Shown here: piece by piece, positions 701-60,231 of the stretch
Numbering within the stretch: position 1 is the stretch's first letter
Layout of the letters: each line of letters begins with the position of its first letter
Origin: Bradyrhizobium elkanii USDA 76
Lineage (GTDB): Bacteria > Pseudomonadota > Alphaproteobacteria > Rhizobiales > Xanthobacteraceae
Reading direction: 5' to 3'
DNA: 64,000 nucleotides
Assembly (NCBI RefSeq): GCF_023278185.1
Contig: NZ_CP066356.1
Span: forward strand, 8,300,001-8,364,000
Translations under genes and position numbers: made by a program
The notes under the pieces: generated by a model
Seen by the model: only the letters and a program-made list of their open reading frames with translations
Databases searched by the model: none
What the model was told of the DNA's origin: nothing

Positions 701-822
701 CGTCGTCCCGGCGAAGGCCGGGATCCATAACCACAGGCGTTAGTTGTTGCGCAAAGCCGTTGAACAGCGTCTCTCGAAACGAAGGCCGCGGCGTATGGGT
801 CCCGGCCTTCGCCGGGACGACG
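701..822. repeat. Palindromic doublet, family A (copy A1)
   Basis: Two inverted copies of a short hairpin unit built on CCCGGCGAAGGCCGGG flank about 60 bp of unrelated sequence, so the whole unit is itself an inverted repeat. It fills the gap between the hydrolase and benzoate-CoA ligase genes. The same family recurs at 13384, 37835, 45100, 52585 and 58343. Confidence 0.8.
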
Positions 823-13365: not shown

Positions 13366-13383
13366 CGCGCGCTCTCGCACGCT

Positions 13384-13517
13384 GTCGTCCCTGCGAAAGC
13401 AGGAACCCATAACCACATCGCCCTGTGTTGTCGAAGCAAGCTGTGGCCCCAGCATCGCACACCAATTGCCATTGGTGGCTATGGGTCCCGGATCGCGCTT
13501 CGGTTGTCCGGGACGAC
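13384..13517. repeat. Palindromic doublet, family A (copy A2, degenerate right arm)
   Basis: The left arm GTCGTCCCTGCGAAAGCAGG is intact. The right arm has drifted (GTCCCGGATCGCGCTTCGG then TCCGGGACGAC), so pairing of the two ends is weaker than in other copies. It separates the convergent DUF805 and sigma-factor genes. Confidence 0.65.
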
Positions 13518-13540
13518 ACGGAATTTGCCGCCGTCGGCGA

Positions 13541-17774: not shown

Positions 17775-17796
17775 GGCGGCTTGCACGCACTAGCTC

Positions 17797-17934
17797 CGTC
17801 ATCCTGAGGAGCGCCGCAGGCGCGTCTCGAAGGATGCACGGCCCCGGATCGCTTGGTGTGCGTTGATCGTCTAACGGCGATAGTGGGGCCGTCGATCCTT
17901 CGAGACGCCGCTTCGCCGCTCCTCAGGATGACGG
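17797..17934. repeat. Palindromic doublet, family B (copy B3)
   Basis: The left arm CGTCATCCTGAGGAGCGCCG and right arm ending CTCAGGATGACGG are inverted, with a longer centre (about 70 bp) than the other B copies. It sits between the convergent ndh and AraC genes. Confidence 0.78.
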
Positions 17935-17963
17935 AGCCACGATCTGTATCAAACCGCAGCCCC

Positions 17964-34733: not shown

Positions 34734-34930
34734 GCTCCCTCCCCCACAAGGCAGGGCAATCACATATGGGGCGCACGAGCTGATCGGCTGGCTTACTTCG
34801 CCTCTCCCGCTTGCGGGGGAGGCCGACGCGCTCGAAGAGCGCGGCGGGTGGGGGCTCTCTCCACGCAGGGATTCCCAATGTGGAATCACCCCCACCCCGC
34901 CCTCCCCCGCGAGCGGGAGAGGGAGCCTGA
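34734..34930. repeat. Palindromic doublet, family C (copy C6), inside the ABC operon
   Basis: The main inverted pair runs from 34797 (CTTCGCCTCTCCCGCTTGCG) to about 34928, preceded by a truncated arm at 34734. It fills the 306-bp space between the binding-protein and permease genes; I see no gene there. Like copy C2 it separates an abundant binding protein from its permeases. Confidence 0.72.
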
Positions 34931-37813: not shown

Positions 37814-37834
37814 TCGCGCGCGGCCTCTAACGCT

Positions 37835-37955
37835 GTCGTCCTGGCGAAAGCCAGGACCCATAACCACCGAATTTGATTGTAAGCGGGATCGCGGCCCTAG
37901 CCTCGCGCAACGATGAGCAGCCGGGGTAATGGGTCCTGGCTTTCGCCAGGACGAC
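37835..37955. repeat. Palindromic doublet, family A (copy A3)
   Basis: GTCGTCCTGGCGAAAGCCAG on the left and its inverted form ending GCCAGGACGAC on the right, about 60 bp apart. The right end (GGGGTAATGGGTCCTGGC) closely matches the right end of the GIY-YIG element at 52951. Confidence 0.82.
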
Positions 37956-45097: not shown

Positions 45098-45099
45098 TT

Positions 45100-45222
45100 G
45101 TCGTCCCGGCGAAAGCCGGGACCCATTACCCCGACTACCTGTGGTGAGACGACGATAGGGCCACAGCGAGCTCCAACAGCGAACGGCTGTGGTTATGGGT
45201 CCCGGCCTTCGCCGGGACGACG
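45100..45222. repeat. Palindromic doublet, family A (copy A4)
   Basis: A textbook copy: GTCGTCCCGGCGAAAGCCGG at 45100 and its reverse complement ending at 45222, with a 60-bp centre. It lies three bases after the regulator stop codon and upstream of polA. Confidence 0.85.
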
Positions 45223-48200: not shown

Positions 48201-48336
48201 GCCGGACGACGAGGTCGCGGCGACGCTGCCGGTGGTGCAGAAGGTGATGCAGGACGCGCCGTTCCCAGCGGTGATCCTGTCGCTGCCGCTGCAGGTCGAC
48301 GCCCGCGCCGCGAACAACTGGGACGAGGCGCATTAG
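45298..48336 (+). CDS. polA: DNA polymerase I
   Basis: A 1012-residue polymerase for Okazaki-fragment maturation and repair. A basic Ala/Lys/Pro tail (residues 1-28) precedes the 5'-3' exonuclease domain (from VFLVDGSSYIFRAYHALP to about 300). The 3'-5' exonuclease-like domain spans about 395-600. Polymerase motifs are intact: VSADYSQIELRLLAEI (A), RRRAKAINFGIIYGIS (B), LQVHDELIFEV (C). All four carboxylates that bind metal in Klenow proofreading (E. coli D355, E357, D424, D501) are replaced here by E426, M428, T505 and S581, so proofreading is predicted to be absent. It is monocistronic, between repeats. Confidence 0.95.
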   Translation: MPKTASKAPAKPASKTAPKPVAAKATAKGDHVFLVDGSSYIFRAYHALPPLNRKSDGLQVNAVLGFCNMLWKLLRDMPEDNRPTHLAIVFDKSEITFRNKLYPDYKAHRPPAPDDLIPQFALIREAVRAFELPCLEQVGFEADDLIATYARLASERGATTTIVSSDKDLMQLVNDKVVMYDTMKDRRIGRDEVIEKFGVPPEKVVEVQALAGDSTDNVPGVPGIGIKTAAQLIIEYGDLDQLLFRAGEIKQPKRREALLENAEKARISRQLVLLDDKVELEVPLDDLAVNEPDSRRLIAFLKAMEFTTLTRRVADYAQIDPANVDADPGNKSGASVFSPLPSSDVTPAPGDAPTSAAAPLPKAKPTGARDDKNSSLKGTPATLAEARGEAIRKTGFERKAYRAIGSLEQLNAFIARVPDTGYVAIEAMSESIDPMQGELSGLALALAPNDACYVPLSHRQAGGGAGLFDAGLAPGQIKTAEALAALKPLLESVGIQKVGFDVKFTSVMLAQHGITLRNIDDAQLMSYALDAGRGSHALEALAERWFGHAVVNYGGLVGSGKGKLTFDQVTIDKASEYAAESADVILRLWRVLKPRLVAERMATVYETLERPLVSVLARMERRGISIDRQVLSRLSGDFAQTAARVEAEIQEIAGEPVNVGSPKQIGDIIFGKMGLPGGSKTKTGAWSTTAQVLDELAEQGHEFPKKILEWRQVSKLKSTYTDALPTYVNPQTHRVHTTYALAATTTGRLSSNEPNLQNIPVRTEDGRKIRRAFIATPGHKLVSADYSQIELRLLAEIADVPVLRQAFRDGLDIHAMTASEMFGVPIKDMPSEVRRRAKAINFGIIYGISAFGLANQLGIAREEASAYIKKYFERFPGIRAYMDETKDFCRRNGYVTTLFGRKCYYPDIKASNASVRAFNERAAINARLQGTAADIIRRAMIRVEDALTEKKLSAQMLLQVHDELIFEVPDDEVAATLPVVQKVMQDAPFPAVILSLPLQVDARAANNWDEAH

Positions 48337-48342
48337 CGGCTC

Positions 48343-48468
48343 CTTCGCCTCTCCCGCTTGCGGGGGAGGCCGACGCGCGAAGCGCGGCGGGTGGGGGCTC
48401 TCTCCGCTGAAAGACTCTGCGCGGAGGCACCCCCACCCCGCCCTCCCCCGCAAGCGGGAGAGGGAGCC
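48343..48468. repeat. Palindromic doublet, family C (copy C7)
   Basis: An inverted pair, CTTCGCCTCTCCCGCTTGCG and CCCGCAAGCGGGAGAGGG, between polA and the LysE gene. Confidence 0.78.
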
Positions 48469-49202: not shown

Positions 49203-49209
49203 CCGACTC

Positions 49210-49311
49210 GTCATGCACGGGTTTGACCCGCGCATCCATCGCCTGCGCATGCAGGCGTCAAGACTCGCTTGCGAAGAGGATGGATTGCCGGGTCAAGCCC
49301 GGCAATGACGA
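49210..49311. repeat. Palindromic doublet, family D
   Basis: An inverted pair, TCATGCACGGGTTTGACCCG and CGGGTCAAGCCCGGCAATGA, with a CATCCAT/ATGGATT inner stem. It lies between the convergent LysE and GST genes. This is the only family D copy in the window. Confidence 0.75.
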
Positions 49312-50723: not shown

Positions 50724-51155
50724 CGGTCTCTCTTCTCCCTCGCCCCGCTCTTGCGGGGTCGAGACGAGCGAAGCTCGCTCATAGAGGGTTGGGGCTCTCT
50801 CCCCGCTTACATCTGTTGAGAGACCTGTACTGGATCGATCCGCGAACTCGCTTCGCCTCTCCCGCTTGCGGGGGAGGCCGGATCGCATCGTCAGATGCGA
50901 TCCGGGTGGGGGCTCTTTCCACGAGTCCCATCGCGGTGAAACCCCCACCCCAACCCTCCCCCGCAAGCGGGAGAGGGGGCGCAGTACCGATGCCGTTGCA
51001 CCTCAAACCTCATATGCGATAGCCCGCCGTAAGCGGGGCGAGGTGAAAGGCAGTCCGCGCGGTGCGCGTTTCATGTGACGCCGTCACCCTCAATCAATCG
51101 CTCGTTTACCATCCCGCCTTAAGGTGAGTCCGCCGGGGCAGCTTGTCGCCGCGGC
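50724..51155. other. Gene-free gap filled with nested palindromic repeats
   Basis: About 430 bp between pyrE and the DUF2865 gene. Apart from the repeats at 50733-51048 only about 100 bp upstream of the DUF2865 gene remain, presumably its promoter. Confidence 0.6.
50733..51048. repeat. Family C doublet with a second doublet inserted inside it (copy C8)
   Basis: The outer left arm (CTCGCCCCGCTCTTGCGGGG at 50739) pairs with an outer right arm (AAGCGGGGCGAGGTGAAAGG at 51031-51050). An inner, complete doublet of a slightly different subtype runs from about 50852 to 50980. The outer left half matches copy C3 until its alignment breaks near the inner unit. Confidence 0.65.
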
Positions 51156-52457: not shown

Positions 52458-52584
52458 GTAGTCCTCGCAGAGACTGAAAGACCATAGATATTGTGTCGGC
52501 GCAGCCGCCGAATCACAATGATATATCAAAGACTTGCTAAAGTGTTCTTAATTCGTTCTGATTGGTTTATAGACCGCCCCCGGA

Positions 52585-52983
52585 CGTCGTCCTGGCGAAA
52601 GCCAGGACCCATTACCCCAATAGGCCGACATCTCGCGAGCTTGGGCCACGAATGAGCACCGCTGGCAGCTATTACGTCTACATCCTCGCAAGCCGGCATC
52701 ACGGCACGATCTACATCGGCGTTACGAACGATCTTCGCCCGCGGCTCGAACTGCATCGTTCCGGCCGAGGCTCCAAGTTTGTGTACCAATATCAGGTCTT
52801 CCGCCTCGTCCATGTCGAGGAATTCGCCACGCCGCAGGAAGCGATCGCCCGCGAGAAGCAACTGAAGTTCTGGAAGCGCGATTGGAAGATCAAGCTGATC
52901 GAAGCGGAAAATCCGGATTGGAACGACCTGTCGGGCCTCATCTGACTATTGGGGTAATGGGTCCGGCTTTCGCCAGGACGACG
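52585..52983. mobile_element. Candidate mobile element: GIY-YIG gene between 38-39 bp terminal inverted repeats of family A
   Basis: The left end (52585-52623) and right end (52946-52983) are reverse complements over 38-39 bases with a single missing base. Each end is itself a family A hairpin. The only cargo is a 97-residue GIY-YIG nuclease gene whose ATG is 29 bp from the left repeat and whose stop codon touches the right repeat. The short family A doublets elsewhere in the window look like internally deleted forms. No flanking target-site duplication is obvious. Confidence 0.6.
52652..52945 (+). CDS. GIY-YIG nuclease family protein
   Basis: A 97-residue single-domain GIY-YIG protein of the UPF0213/YhbQ-like size. 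The motif is seen as YYVYIL and, 9 residues on, IYIGVTND. The catalytic Arg lies in LRPRLELHRSG and the metal-binding Glu in EAIAREKQLKFWKR. The ATG at 52652 is the first that gives the domain; the longer frame runs through the left terminal repeat. The gene is enclosed by inverted copies of the family A palindrome, so it is more likely part of a small mobile unit than a host repair gene. Function in DNA cleavage of the flanking hairpins is a hypothesis. Confidence 0.85.
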   Translation: MSTAGSYYVYILASRHHGTIYIGVTNDLRPRLELHRSGRGSKFVYQYQVFRLVHVEEFATPQEAIAREKQLKFWKRDWKIKLIEAENPDWNDLSGLI

Positions 52984-53021
52984 ATGTGGGCGGCACTGCA
53001 TGCCTGCCCGCAAAGCAATTC

Positions 53022-53046
53022 GGGCCGCTGACCAGGTCAGCGGCCC
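53022..53046. other. Perfect 12-bp inverted repeat with 1-bp centre (GGGCCGCTGACC/GGTCAGCGGCCC)
   Basis: A very stable hairpin about 40 bp beyond the right end of the GIY-YIG element. It lacks a T tract on either side, so a rho-independent terminator is uncertain. Confidence 0.45.
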
Positions 53047-53198
53047 GTTGAAAATGGCTTCGGAATGAAATGCGTCGGAGCTGAAAAACGTGCCCGCCCC
53101 ACGAGCGACAGCTGTGTTTGTAAAGGCTCCGTTAAGGCTTGGAAATCCGTATCACCACGGTGTTTCGGATTGCGCGCGAAAGCGCGTTGCGCGGCCGC

Positions 53199-53432
53199 TT
53201 AGTTCGCCGCCGAGAGCAGCTTGTCGCCGCAGGCGTTTGCGTAGAACTTGCCGCCGCATTGCCGCTTGATGGCGGCGCAGCGCGCGGCGGGCGATGCGTT
53301 CTGCGCCACGCTGAAGCCGCAACTCAGGCCGTCGGCGCTGCGGCCCGGTCTGCCCGCTGCATCGGCTGCGCTGGTCGCCGTGATGCACACCACGAGCAAC
53401 GCCGCGGCCGCGATCTCGATCAAGAGTCTCAT
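53199..53432 (-). CDS. Small secreted four-cysteine protein
   Basis: A 77-residue protein with a signal peptide (MRLLIEIAAAALLVVCITAT, cleavage near SAADA) and a short mature part. The mature part has four cysteines in LSCGFS, AARCAA, KRQCGG and NACGDK, suggesting two disulfides. GGAG lies just upstream of the ATG at 53432. No family is recognised. It stands alone between an intergenic hairpin and glgP. Confidence 0.6.
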   Translation of the reverse strand: MRLLIEIAAAALLVVCITATSAADAAGRPGRSADGLSCGFSVAQNASPAARCAAIKRQCGGKFYANACGDKLLSAAN

Positions 53433-58324: not shown

Positions 58325-58342
58325 CGAAGCAACACACGCGAT

Positions 58343-58484
58343 GTCGTCCCGGCCTAGTGCGCAATTGCGCACGGGAGCCGGGACCCATAACCACCGATGG
58401 TCATTGTTGCGCGACGTCGGAACGACGAGTCCCATTCACAACACCCGCTGCGGAGTATGGGTCCCGGCCTTCGCCGGGACGACG
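58343..58484. repeat. Palindromic doublet, family A (copy A6, left hairpin with a palindromic loop insertion)
   Basis: The right arm is standard. In the left arm the usual GAAA loop is replaced by a 16-bp perfect palindrome GTGCGCAATTGCGCAC plus a few bases, producing a longer hairpin. Confidence 0.8.

Positions 58485-58614: not shown

Positions 58615-60231
<1,617 letters not shown>

Follow-up and report, generated by a model that had tools for sequence, protein, structure and literature searches.

Our survey supports the view that doublets of repetitive extragenic palindromes (REPs) are partnered by a particular type of GIY-YIG gene, in the manner of REPINs and RAYTs. The window, the 64-kb stretch analyzed here (C1:8300001-8364000 of the 9.5-Mb genome), contains an element that is probably a REP-associated GIY-YIG cassette, in which a minimal Slx1-like endonuclease gene is bounded by CGTC-type REP hairpins and which works like a REPIN-RAYT system. 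Its nuclease may well be the enzyme dedicated to nicking the hairpins of the CGTC REP superfamily and mobilizing them, in a transposition-like system that would be unrelated to known transposases, extend through the alphaproteobacteria and farther, and account for the many palindromic doublets of these genomes. The parallel with RAYTs and REPINs, drawn in the initial annotation of this DNA, is supported by a link that recurs across genera, is specific for REP subtypes, and is absent from 13 loci with other GIY-YIG types and from control ORFs.

The cassette and the REP doublets of its genome

The cassette occupies positions 52585 to 52983. Its left arm (52585..52623, plus strand, 39 bp) consists of a CGTC tag, the stem GTCCTGGC/GCCAGGAC with a GAAA loop, and a CCA tail, followed by the inner end TTACCCCAATAG. 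The right arm (52946..52983, minus strand, 38 bp) is inverted and has the same tag, loop, and tail, with the stem GTCCTGGC/GCCAGGAC minus one base, and its hairpin is weaker because of the missing base (DNA fold of -5.9 kcal/mol, compared with -9.4 kcal/mol on the left). With arm ends read by eye, the outer part of the inverted repeats is complementary at 19 of 19 positions and the adjoining 24 nt at 92%. Both inner ends begin with TTACCCCAA, with which several gene-less doublets of the TGG type start as well. Between the arms lies the gene for the Slx1-like GIY-YIG endonuclease of 97 amino acids (52652..52945, plus strand), identified as an ORF and by Pfam. Its ATG at 52652 is located 28 bp past the left arm and its TGA (52943-52945) abuts the right arm, so that the ORF fills the space between them. 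The arrangement originally described, a 97-residue GIY-YIG gene between inverted repeats of 38 to 39 bp, one of them lacking a base, is thus confirmed.

The protein matches Pfam PF01541 (E 4e-17) as its sole Pfam domain, and an NCBIfam profile search with it returned no match. Residues Y10, Y21, R31, and E68, which we take to be catalytic, are present. Across 182 rows, each of them is unchanged in 99% or more; this set, like the 52 rows discussed below, contains duplicates because some genes carry more than one locus id, up to three (L004/L197, L078/L158/L234, L166/L228, and perhaps others). In a structure search, the solved matches were the UPF0213 proteins 1zg2 and 1ywl, which the available text of PMC1564403 counts to the Slx1 family. 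As expected of an Slx1-like protein, the GIY-YIG domain stands alone and the active-site residues are conserved. The REP-linked group shares this minimal stand-alone domain with the Slx1-like/UPF0213 nucleases 1zg2 and 1ywl and differs in a C-terminal pattern of W74, R76, W78K79, N87, and W90 (at least 97% of rows), of which W74 and W78 are missing from the 1zg2 alignment. The gene is under purifying selection, with a median dN/dS of 0.098 and a largest value of 0.20 (13 sequences, 78 pairs). No match to the protein was found among 50,697 phage records at E 1e-5. We refer to the GIY-YIG type of the window as group A. Two observations concern other genomes: at L181 (G007:C137, from about 7833 onward, reverse strand), a TGG cassette has an apparently broken GIY-YIG frame in a genome that still holds 19 TGG copies, and in G384, from the class search, the group A profile was matched 12 times, with at least 10 strong matches on several different contigs, which hints at an expansion of paralogues.

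For REPs, we used a strict detector that requires [CT]GTC, an 8-bp stem with at most one mismatch, a loop of 3 to 25 nt, the complementary stem, and CCA. It gave 13 matches in the 64-kb window, compared with the 0.45 that a Markov null gives for this length; the match at 59358 is probably due to chance. The five gene-less doublets reported initially for the rest of the window were all recovered, and a sixth of a related family was added. The doublets at 701..822 (CGG arms on both sides) and 13383..13518, both found by the detector, and at 37834..37955 (TGG arms) are located within blocks aligned with G004, the closest relative compared. The right arm of the third, at 37955, has the tag GGTC and was found separately after the strict detector had missed it; one arm of this doublet is identical to the left arm of the GIY-YIG cassette over 33 nt. 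The doublet at 45099..45222 is absent at the orthologous place in G004, and two others, at 58342..58484 (left arm with a long loop) and at 49209..49310 (the related CGTCAT-type family), are absent from G004. With the exception of this one GGTC, all arm tags in the window are CGTC or TGTC. Other palindromic families occur in several copies, namely the GTCATCCTGAGGAGC..TCGAAGGATG and CTCTCCCGC..GCGGGGGAGG types (window positions 17793-17937, 34782-34927, 48329-48468, and 50837-50980).

Genome-wide, a degenerate pattern covering three subtypes with up to 3 mismatches gave 277 matches and its reversed control none. In sampled stretches of this genome, chosen around listed copies, 65 REPs formed 27 inverted pairs, two of which share an arm. 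The sampled doublets are mostly about 122 bp long, with spacers of 67 to 72 bp whose ends are conserved, and two doublets fold as strong hairpins (z -8.6 and -10.2). Imperfect stems were found in 0 of 26 TGG arms, compared with 2 of 18 and 6 of 22 in the other types, and TGG spacers are more alike, all in small numbers. Judged by these sequence differences, small as the numbers are, the TGG-arm doublets, which are of the type of the resident gene, look like the youngest in this genome. Two stretches, L047 (G000:C1:501900-504000) and L048 (G000:C1:558100-560200), hold the same 372-aa transposase ORF between REP arms about 1460 bp apart. The ORF belongs to the IS110 family (Pfam PF02371 and PF01548, scanned in L047); consequently, the doublets are also targets of an IS110-type element, and because of this gene both stretches were rejected as larger autonomous elements.

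Recurrence and subtype specificity of the pairing

Group A loci from Bradyrhizobium were the best 110 of at least 170 matches in 117 genomes, taken by score in listing order and not drawn at random; in all loci beyond the window, only [CT]GTC hairpins were sought. Among these best 110 loci, a CGTC REP is present within 250 bp upstream of the gene in 91 and downstream in 89, on at least one side in 99 and on both sides in 81. The order, class, and phylum searches, each represented by its best places (up to 30 per search), extend this pattern: REPs lie on either side of 12 and on both sides of 9 among 19 group A loci from the order (two of them from Bradyrhizobium), of 26 and 17 among the 29 best loci elsewhere in the class, each from a different genome, and of 8 and 5 among the 10 best loci outside the class. 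For the 27 loci that the phylum search was the first to return, the numbers are 14 and 8, and the weakest set, 17 in-class loci of that search, has 6 and 3. The outcome set beforehand as refuting the link, that GIY-YIG genes of this clade are generally not flanked by the repeats, did not occur, with REPs on both sides of 81 of the best 110, 17 of 29, and 5 of 10 loci. REPs cluster close to the gene: within 100 bp, their density is 8.3 per kb in the genus and 7.1 in the class, falling to 0 to 0.5 beyond 250 bp; it drops from 4.2 to at most 0.9 per kb in the order set and from 7.0 to 0 to 0.6 outside the class, and the null gives 0.003 per kb. In the class set, 27 of the 65 REPs near the gene face inward. 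Stem sequences vary between genomes; tag and tail recur, both being requirements of the detector.

When the loci from the order, class, and phylum searches are pooled, the detector finds nothing on either side of the gene in 23 of 75 group A rows. Six of these (L173, L229, L232, L235, L237, and L247) show by eye flanking inverted CGTC-like hairpins with longer loops or a variant tag, and ten loci (L160, L168, L172, L174, L194, L233, L240, L242, L244, and L245) have no inverted match scoring above 11. Of 35 matching named plasmid records, 12 were examined. Detector matches within 250 bp are present on plasmids of Azospirillum lipoferum 4B, Sinorhizobium meliloti, Rhizobium sp. CIAT894, Shinella, and Neorhizobium, as well as in a record named Aeromonas caviae and, on one side only, in Photobacterium. 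Plasmids of Novosphingobium aromaticivorans and Sphingobium carry inverted hairpins that were seen by eye and missed by the detector, and the plasmid records of Rhizobium tumorigenes, Planktothrix, and Spirosoma gave no detector match near the gene. On A. lipoferum 4B plasmid AZO_p3 (L269, NC_016623.1), the group A gene is located between sufB and sufC with a REP doublet on each side.

Two comparisons show what flanking by REPs amounts to for other genes. None of 13 loci with other GIY-YIG types, two of them from this genome, has a CGTC REP on either side, let alone both, and this remained so with a looser tag allowing CCTC; two of them, L161 and L169, are flanked by inverted repeats of another family. 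Control ORFs were defined mechanically (at least 200 aa, overlaps included) in REP-bearing stretches of this genome, picked for containing REPs, and in the window. REPs on both sides were found for 0 of 111 and 0 of 102 of them and a REP within 250 bp on either side for 27 of 111 and 18 of 102 (45 of 213).

The REP type follows the protein. For 99 of the 111 genus loci (12 were dropped for want of an outward REP or because of a short protein), protein similarity and REP similarity are correlated with a Mantel r of 0.71, the largest of 2000 permutations reaching 0.13. When REPs were shuffled only among paralogues within a genome, 0 of 2000 permutations reached the observed r (largest 0.58), and among the 48 loci that have genome-mates, 45 (one tie) carry a REP nearer to that of the closest protein in another genome than to those of its genome-mates. 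Since within-genome shuffles fall short and the comparison with genome-mates points the same way, species relatedness is not the cause of the correlation. Thirteen REP labels require 16 changes on the protein tree, with a possible minimum of 12 and a shuffled mean of 60.5, and the bootstrap of this tree, which is based on few columns, has not settled. The TGG type of the window forms one clade (support 100/99), and the CGG, GCC, CGTCCGC, GTCGCCCG, and ATCGCCCG labels do not form single clades. Both arms of a cassette have the same stem, taken as 8 nt in the genus loci, at 56 of 76 genus loci (shuffled mean 12.4) and 13 of 22 others (1.6). The comparison of element-borne GIY-YIG phylogeny with repeat subtypes, proposed in the initial annotation, thus came out in favor of the link.

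Repeat copy number, taken from exact counting of three subtypes across 117 genomes, was compared with gene presence, using E-value limits (1e-33 and 1e-46 in the genus, 1e-27 in the class) chosen after the lists had been seen; because of this and because the genomes are related, the p-values given here are too small. Genomes with a GIY-YIG match at or below 1e-33 (57) have a median of 84 copies, compared with 7.5 in the 60 others (p 6e-13), most of which still have a more distant group A gene. Each of the 15 genomes with the clade of the window (at or below 1e-46) holds at least 8 TGG copies (median 48; p 1.4e-10), and G108, the sole genome without any GIY-YIG match, holds 5 copies in all. Exceptions occur in both directions, as 15 of the 60 genomes with only weaker matches have at least 20 copies and 3 of the 57 close-match genomes fewer than 8. 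Copy number follows the gene in the medians, and the exceptions leave room for recent spread of doublets in strains lacking the gene, an outcome named initially as refuting the link. G004 contains 84 TGG copies despite its GCC-type cassette, and in the present genome CGG copies (92) outnumber TGG copies (62), yet it has no CGG-type gene. At the level of the class (190 genomes), one common CGTC pattern was detected in 22 of 54 with a group A gene and in 11 of 136 without (Fisher p 4.5e-7), and at least 10 copies of it in 10 genomes with the gene and 1 without.

History of the site and alternative explanations

The TGG, CGG, and GCC cassettes share one chromosomal site. The left-flank motif of this site was found in 52 rows, with some genomes counted twice, and the cassette is located there in some three dozen, so that this copy is old, mainly inherited, and seldom moves. 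In the motif-bearing rows without a cassette (L178, L179, L180, L183, L184, L186, L188, and L190), unrelated sequence is present at this place and no bare doublet was found. G004 carries a different GIY-YIG/REP type (GCC) at the same site. It is about 90 to 97% identical nearby; the two sequences part near 52563 and rejoin near 53017, so that REP, GIY-YIG gene, REP, and outer collars form the unit that differs (52563..53016, limits set by eye in the site alignment) between flanks that align, the left one at 96% identity (near-identical at the site) and the right one at 86% and then 95%. Fixation at one site in all relatives, named initially as an argument against a mobile system, thus applies to the common site, and it does not apply to the subtypes swapped there between close relatives or to the CTG-type genes, which sit elsewhere. 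The swap could be the result of ordinary homologous recombination; on the aligned sequences, either a homologous import or an element-driven event would fit. The left and right flanks of the site (L186-L191 compared with window positions 52562-53200) are far apart in G002, G005, and G008, each on one contig, which indicates a rearrangement breakpoint near the GIY-YIG site; in G012 they are on different contigs, which is less telling.

The comparison with G004 comprised 32 aligned blocks (91,725 bp) that include four doublet sites of this genome. Across these roughly 92 kb, three doublets are present only here and three only in G004, and one single arm only here. The gaps at doublet sites hold unrelated intergenic sequence, so that no insertion footprint can be read; clean empty sites and target-site duplications, the hallmarks of a classical insertion sequence or MITE, were sought in this alignment and none was seen, the junctions not being clean. 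Mobility of the element, as claimed in the initial annotation, is something we infer only.

The main rival to a mobilizing enzyme is a caretaker role without mobility, in which the nuclease acts on REP hairpins and cruciforms by cutting or resolving them, protecting replication or limiting harm without moving REPs, and is kept adjacent for regulation or by linkage. Yeast Slx1 nucleases cleave at junctions of arrested forks according to the accessible part of PMC1564403, and purifying selection, the long retention of the gene at one site, and the strong hairpins of the two folded doublets agree with such a role. Yet a caretaker needs neither matching REPs at both ends of its gene nor REP subtypes that track its phylogeny among paralogues of the same genome, and where a close gene is missing, REPs tend to be few, not many, apart from the 15 of 60 exceptions; we regard it as a minor, though serious, possibility. 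Less probable still, and in our judgment unlikely, is that REPs are recombination hot spots between which small GIY-YIG genes of some other function ride by homologous exchange. The swap in G004 within otherwise alignable flanks, the raised divergence over about 600 bp rightward, as in an imported tract, and a leftover GCC-type arm beside the TGG-type cassette of locus L010 are all compatible with hitchhiking of this kind, which would, however, not be expected to produce the specific pairing of protein clades with REP subtypes, nor the contrast with 0 of 213 control ORFs (all of at least 200 aa) and 0 of 13 other-type GIY-YIG loci having REPs on both sides.

That another enzyme, a RAYT or an IS transposase, moves the CGTC REPs and the GIY-YIG gene is adjacent by chance or through REP insertion nearby appears quite improbable. 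It would account for genomes that hold REPs without a close GIY-YIG gene, and an IS110-family element does lie inside two REP doublets of this genome; but it leaves the co-phylogeny of protein and REP without a cause, and Di Nocera et al. (PMC3733652) report having found no transposase gene that CGTC REPs bracket systematically. A search of this genome for the Y1 transposase domain (Y1_Tnp, PF01797) gave no match, with 5 of 14 control genomes positive, and a RAYT was therefore rejected as the mobilizer here. An effect of sheer abundance, by which repeats this common flank many genes, has next to no probability: flanking on one side, seen within 250 bp for 45 of 213 control ORFs, is in keeping with it, and flanking on both sides, in none of the 213 controls and in 81 of the best 110 of at least 170 GIY-YIG loci, refutes it. 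The Markov null, the control ORFs, and the other GIY-YIG types together led us to reject chance and abundance as the cause of the pairing.

Proposed mechanism and relation to known systems

We favor a mobilizing nuclease, and its fold (Slx1 cuts at junctions, according to the accessible part of PMC1564403) together with the RAYT analogy leads us to infer hairpin recognition and nicking that would move or copy inverted REP pairs. Recognition of the CGTC-tagged hairpin would take place in single-stranded or extruded DNA and be followed by a nick at the hairpin foot. By this nick, the nuclease would open the way for inverted pairs (the doublets, about 122 bp long) to undergo excision, copying, or insertion in trans. 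Its own cassette it would rarely mobilize in cis; like RAYTs, the gene is here inherited mostly by vertical descent, and the short doublets would do the spreading. In this way the nuclease would fill, for CGTC REPs, the role ascribed to RAYTs in the case of GTAG REPs, by unrelated chemistry.

The pairing gives a testable candidate enzyme for CGTC REPs, a superfamily that, in the printed sources as far as they were available, is stated to lack one; these repeats are widespread in alphaproteobacteria, and the same sources left their spread open for want of an enzyme. It would point to at least two origins of REP systems, with enzymes unrelated to each other, and would assign a function to a group of small GIY-YIG nucleases of bacteria. 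If hairpin specificity proves true, a nuclease of 97 aa would be useful as a minimal DNA tool.

The repeats themselves fit a published group. Di Nocera, De Gregorio and Rocco (2013, PMC3733652), in the part of the paper at hand, divide REPs into GTAG and CGTC superfamilies, the latter found mainly in alphaproteobacteria, Bradyrhizobium included, and characterized by CGTC tags, 8- to 9-bp stems, CCA tails, and inverted dimers; Rickettsia palindromic elements were included by these authors. The repeats of this genome have all of these features, with a CGTC or TGTC tag, a stem of 8 to 9 bp, a CCA tail, and mostly head-to-head inverted dimers. They agree with the published description, as far as available, in the CGTC/TGTC tag, the 8-bp stem, the 4-nt loop of the main types, the CCA tail, and the dimers, and differ from it in that longer loops also occur in the present genome. 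An associated enzyme is not reported in the available text, in which "GIY" has 0 occurrences. A literature search that did not cover preprints found no GIY-YIG gene linked to REPs among the titles and abstracts listed, and no paper joining GIY-YIG with "repetitive extragenic palindromic" or with palindromic and Bradyrhizobium; papers mentioning both GIY-YIG and REPIN were, by title, all on restriction enzymes. "GIY" likewise has 0 occurrences in the accessible text of PMC12306157, PMC6006769, and PMC3116915, and neither GIY-YIG nor RAYT occurs in that of PMC5082802 on Bradyrhizobium REPs. Of the initial description as undescribed, the part concerning the link between GIY-YIG gene and REPs stands within the searched literature, and the part concerning the repeats does not.

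Among selfish elements, GIY-YIG homing endonucleases and Penelope elements have the same nuclease fold (PMC1564403, text as available). Unlike these, the protein described here has no NUMOD and no reverse transcriptase, PF01541 being its only domain, and is just 97 aa long; homing-endonuclease features are absent, with neither NUMOD nor another DNA-binding domain and an intergenic place of the gene. The closest likeness is to REPIN-RAYT systems, with which, according to the available portions of PMC3116915, the cassette shares dispersed inverted doublets of hairpin REPs, an enzyme gene that is present once, passed on mainly by vertical descent, and adjoined by REPs, and the pairing of different REP types with different enzymes. 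A REP type specific to the enzyme lineage and REPs dispersed as inverted doublets are present here as well; a Y1 transposase between the REPs and a GTAG tag on the window arms are absent. In REPIN-RAYT systems the enzyme is a Y1 HUH transposase and the tag GTAG, whereas here they are a GIY-YIG nuclease and CGTC or TGTC. As enzyme and tag differ, the cassette would work like a REPIN-RAYT system without being a member of it.
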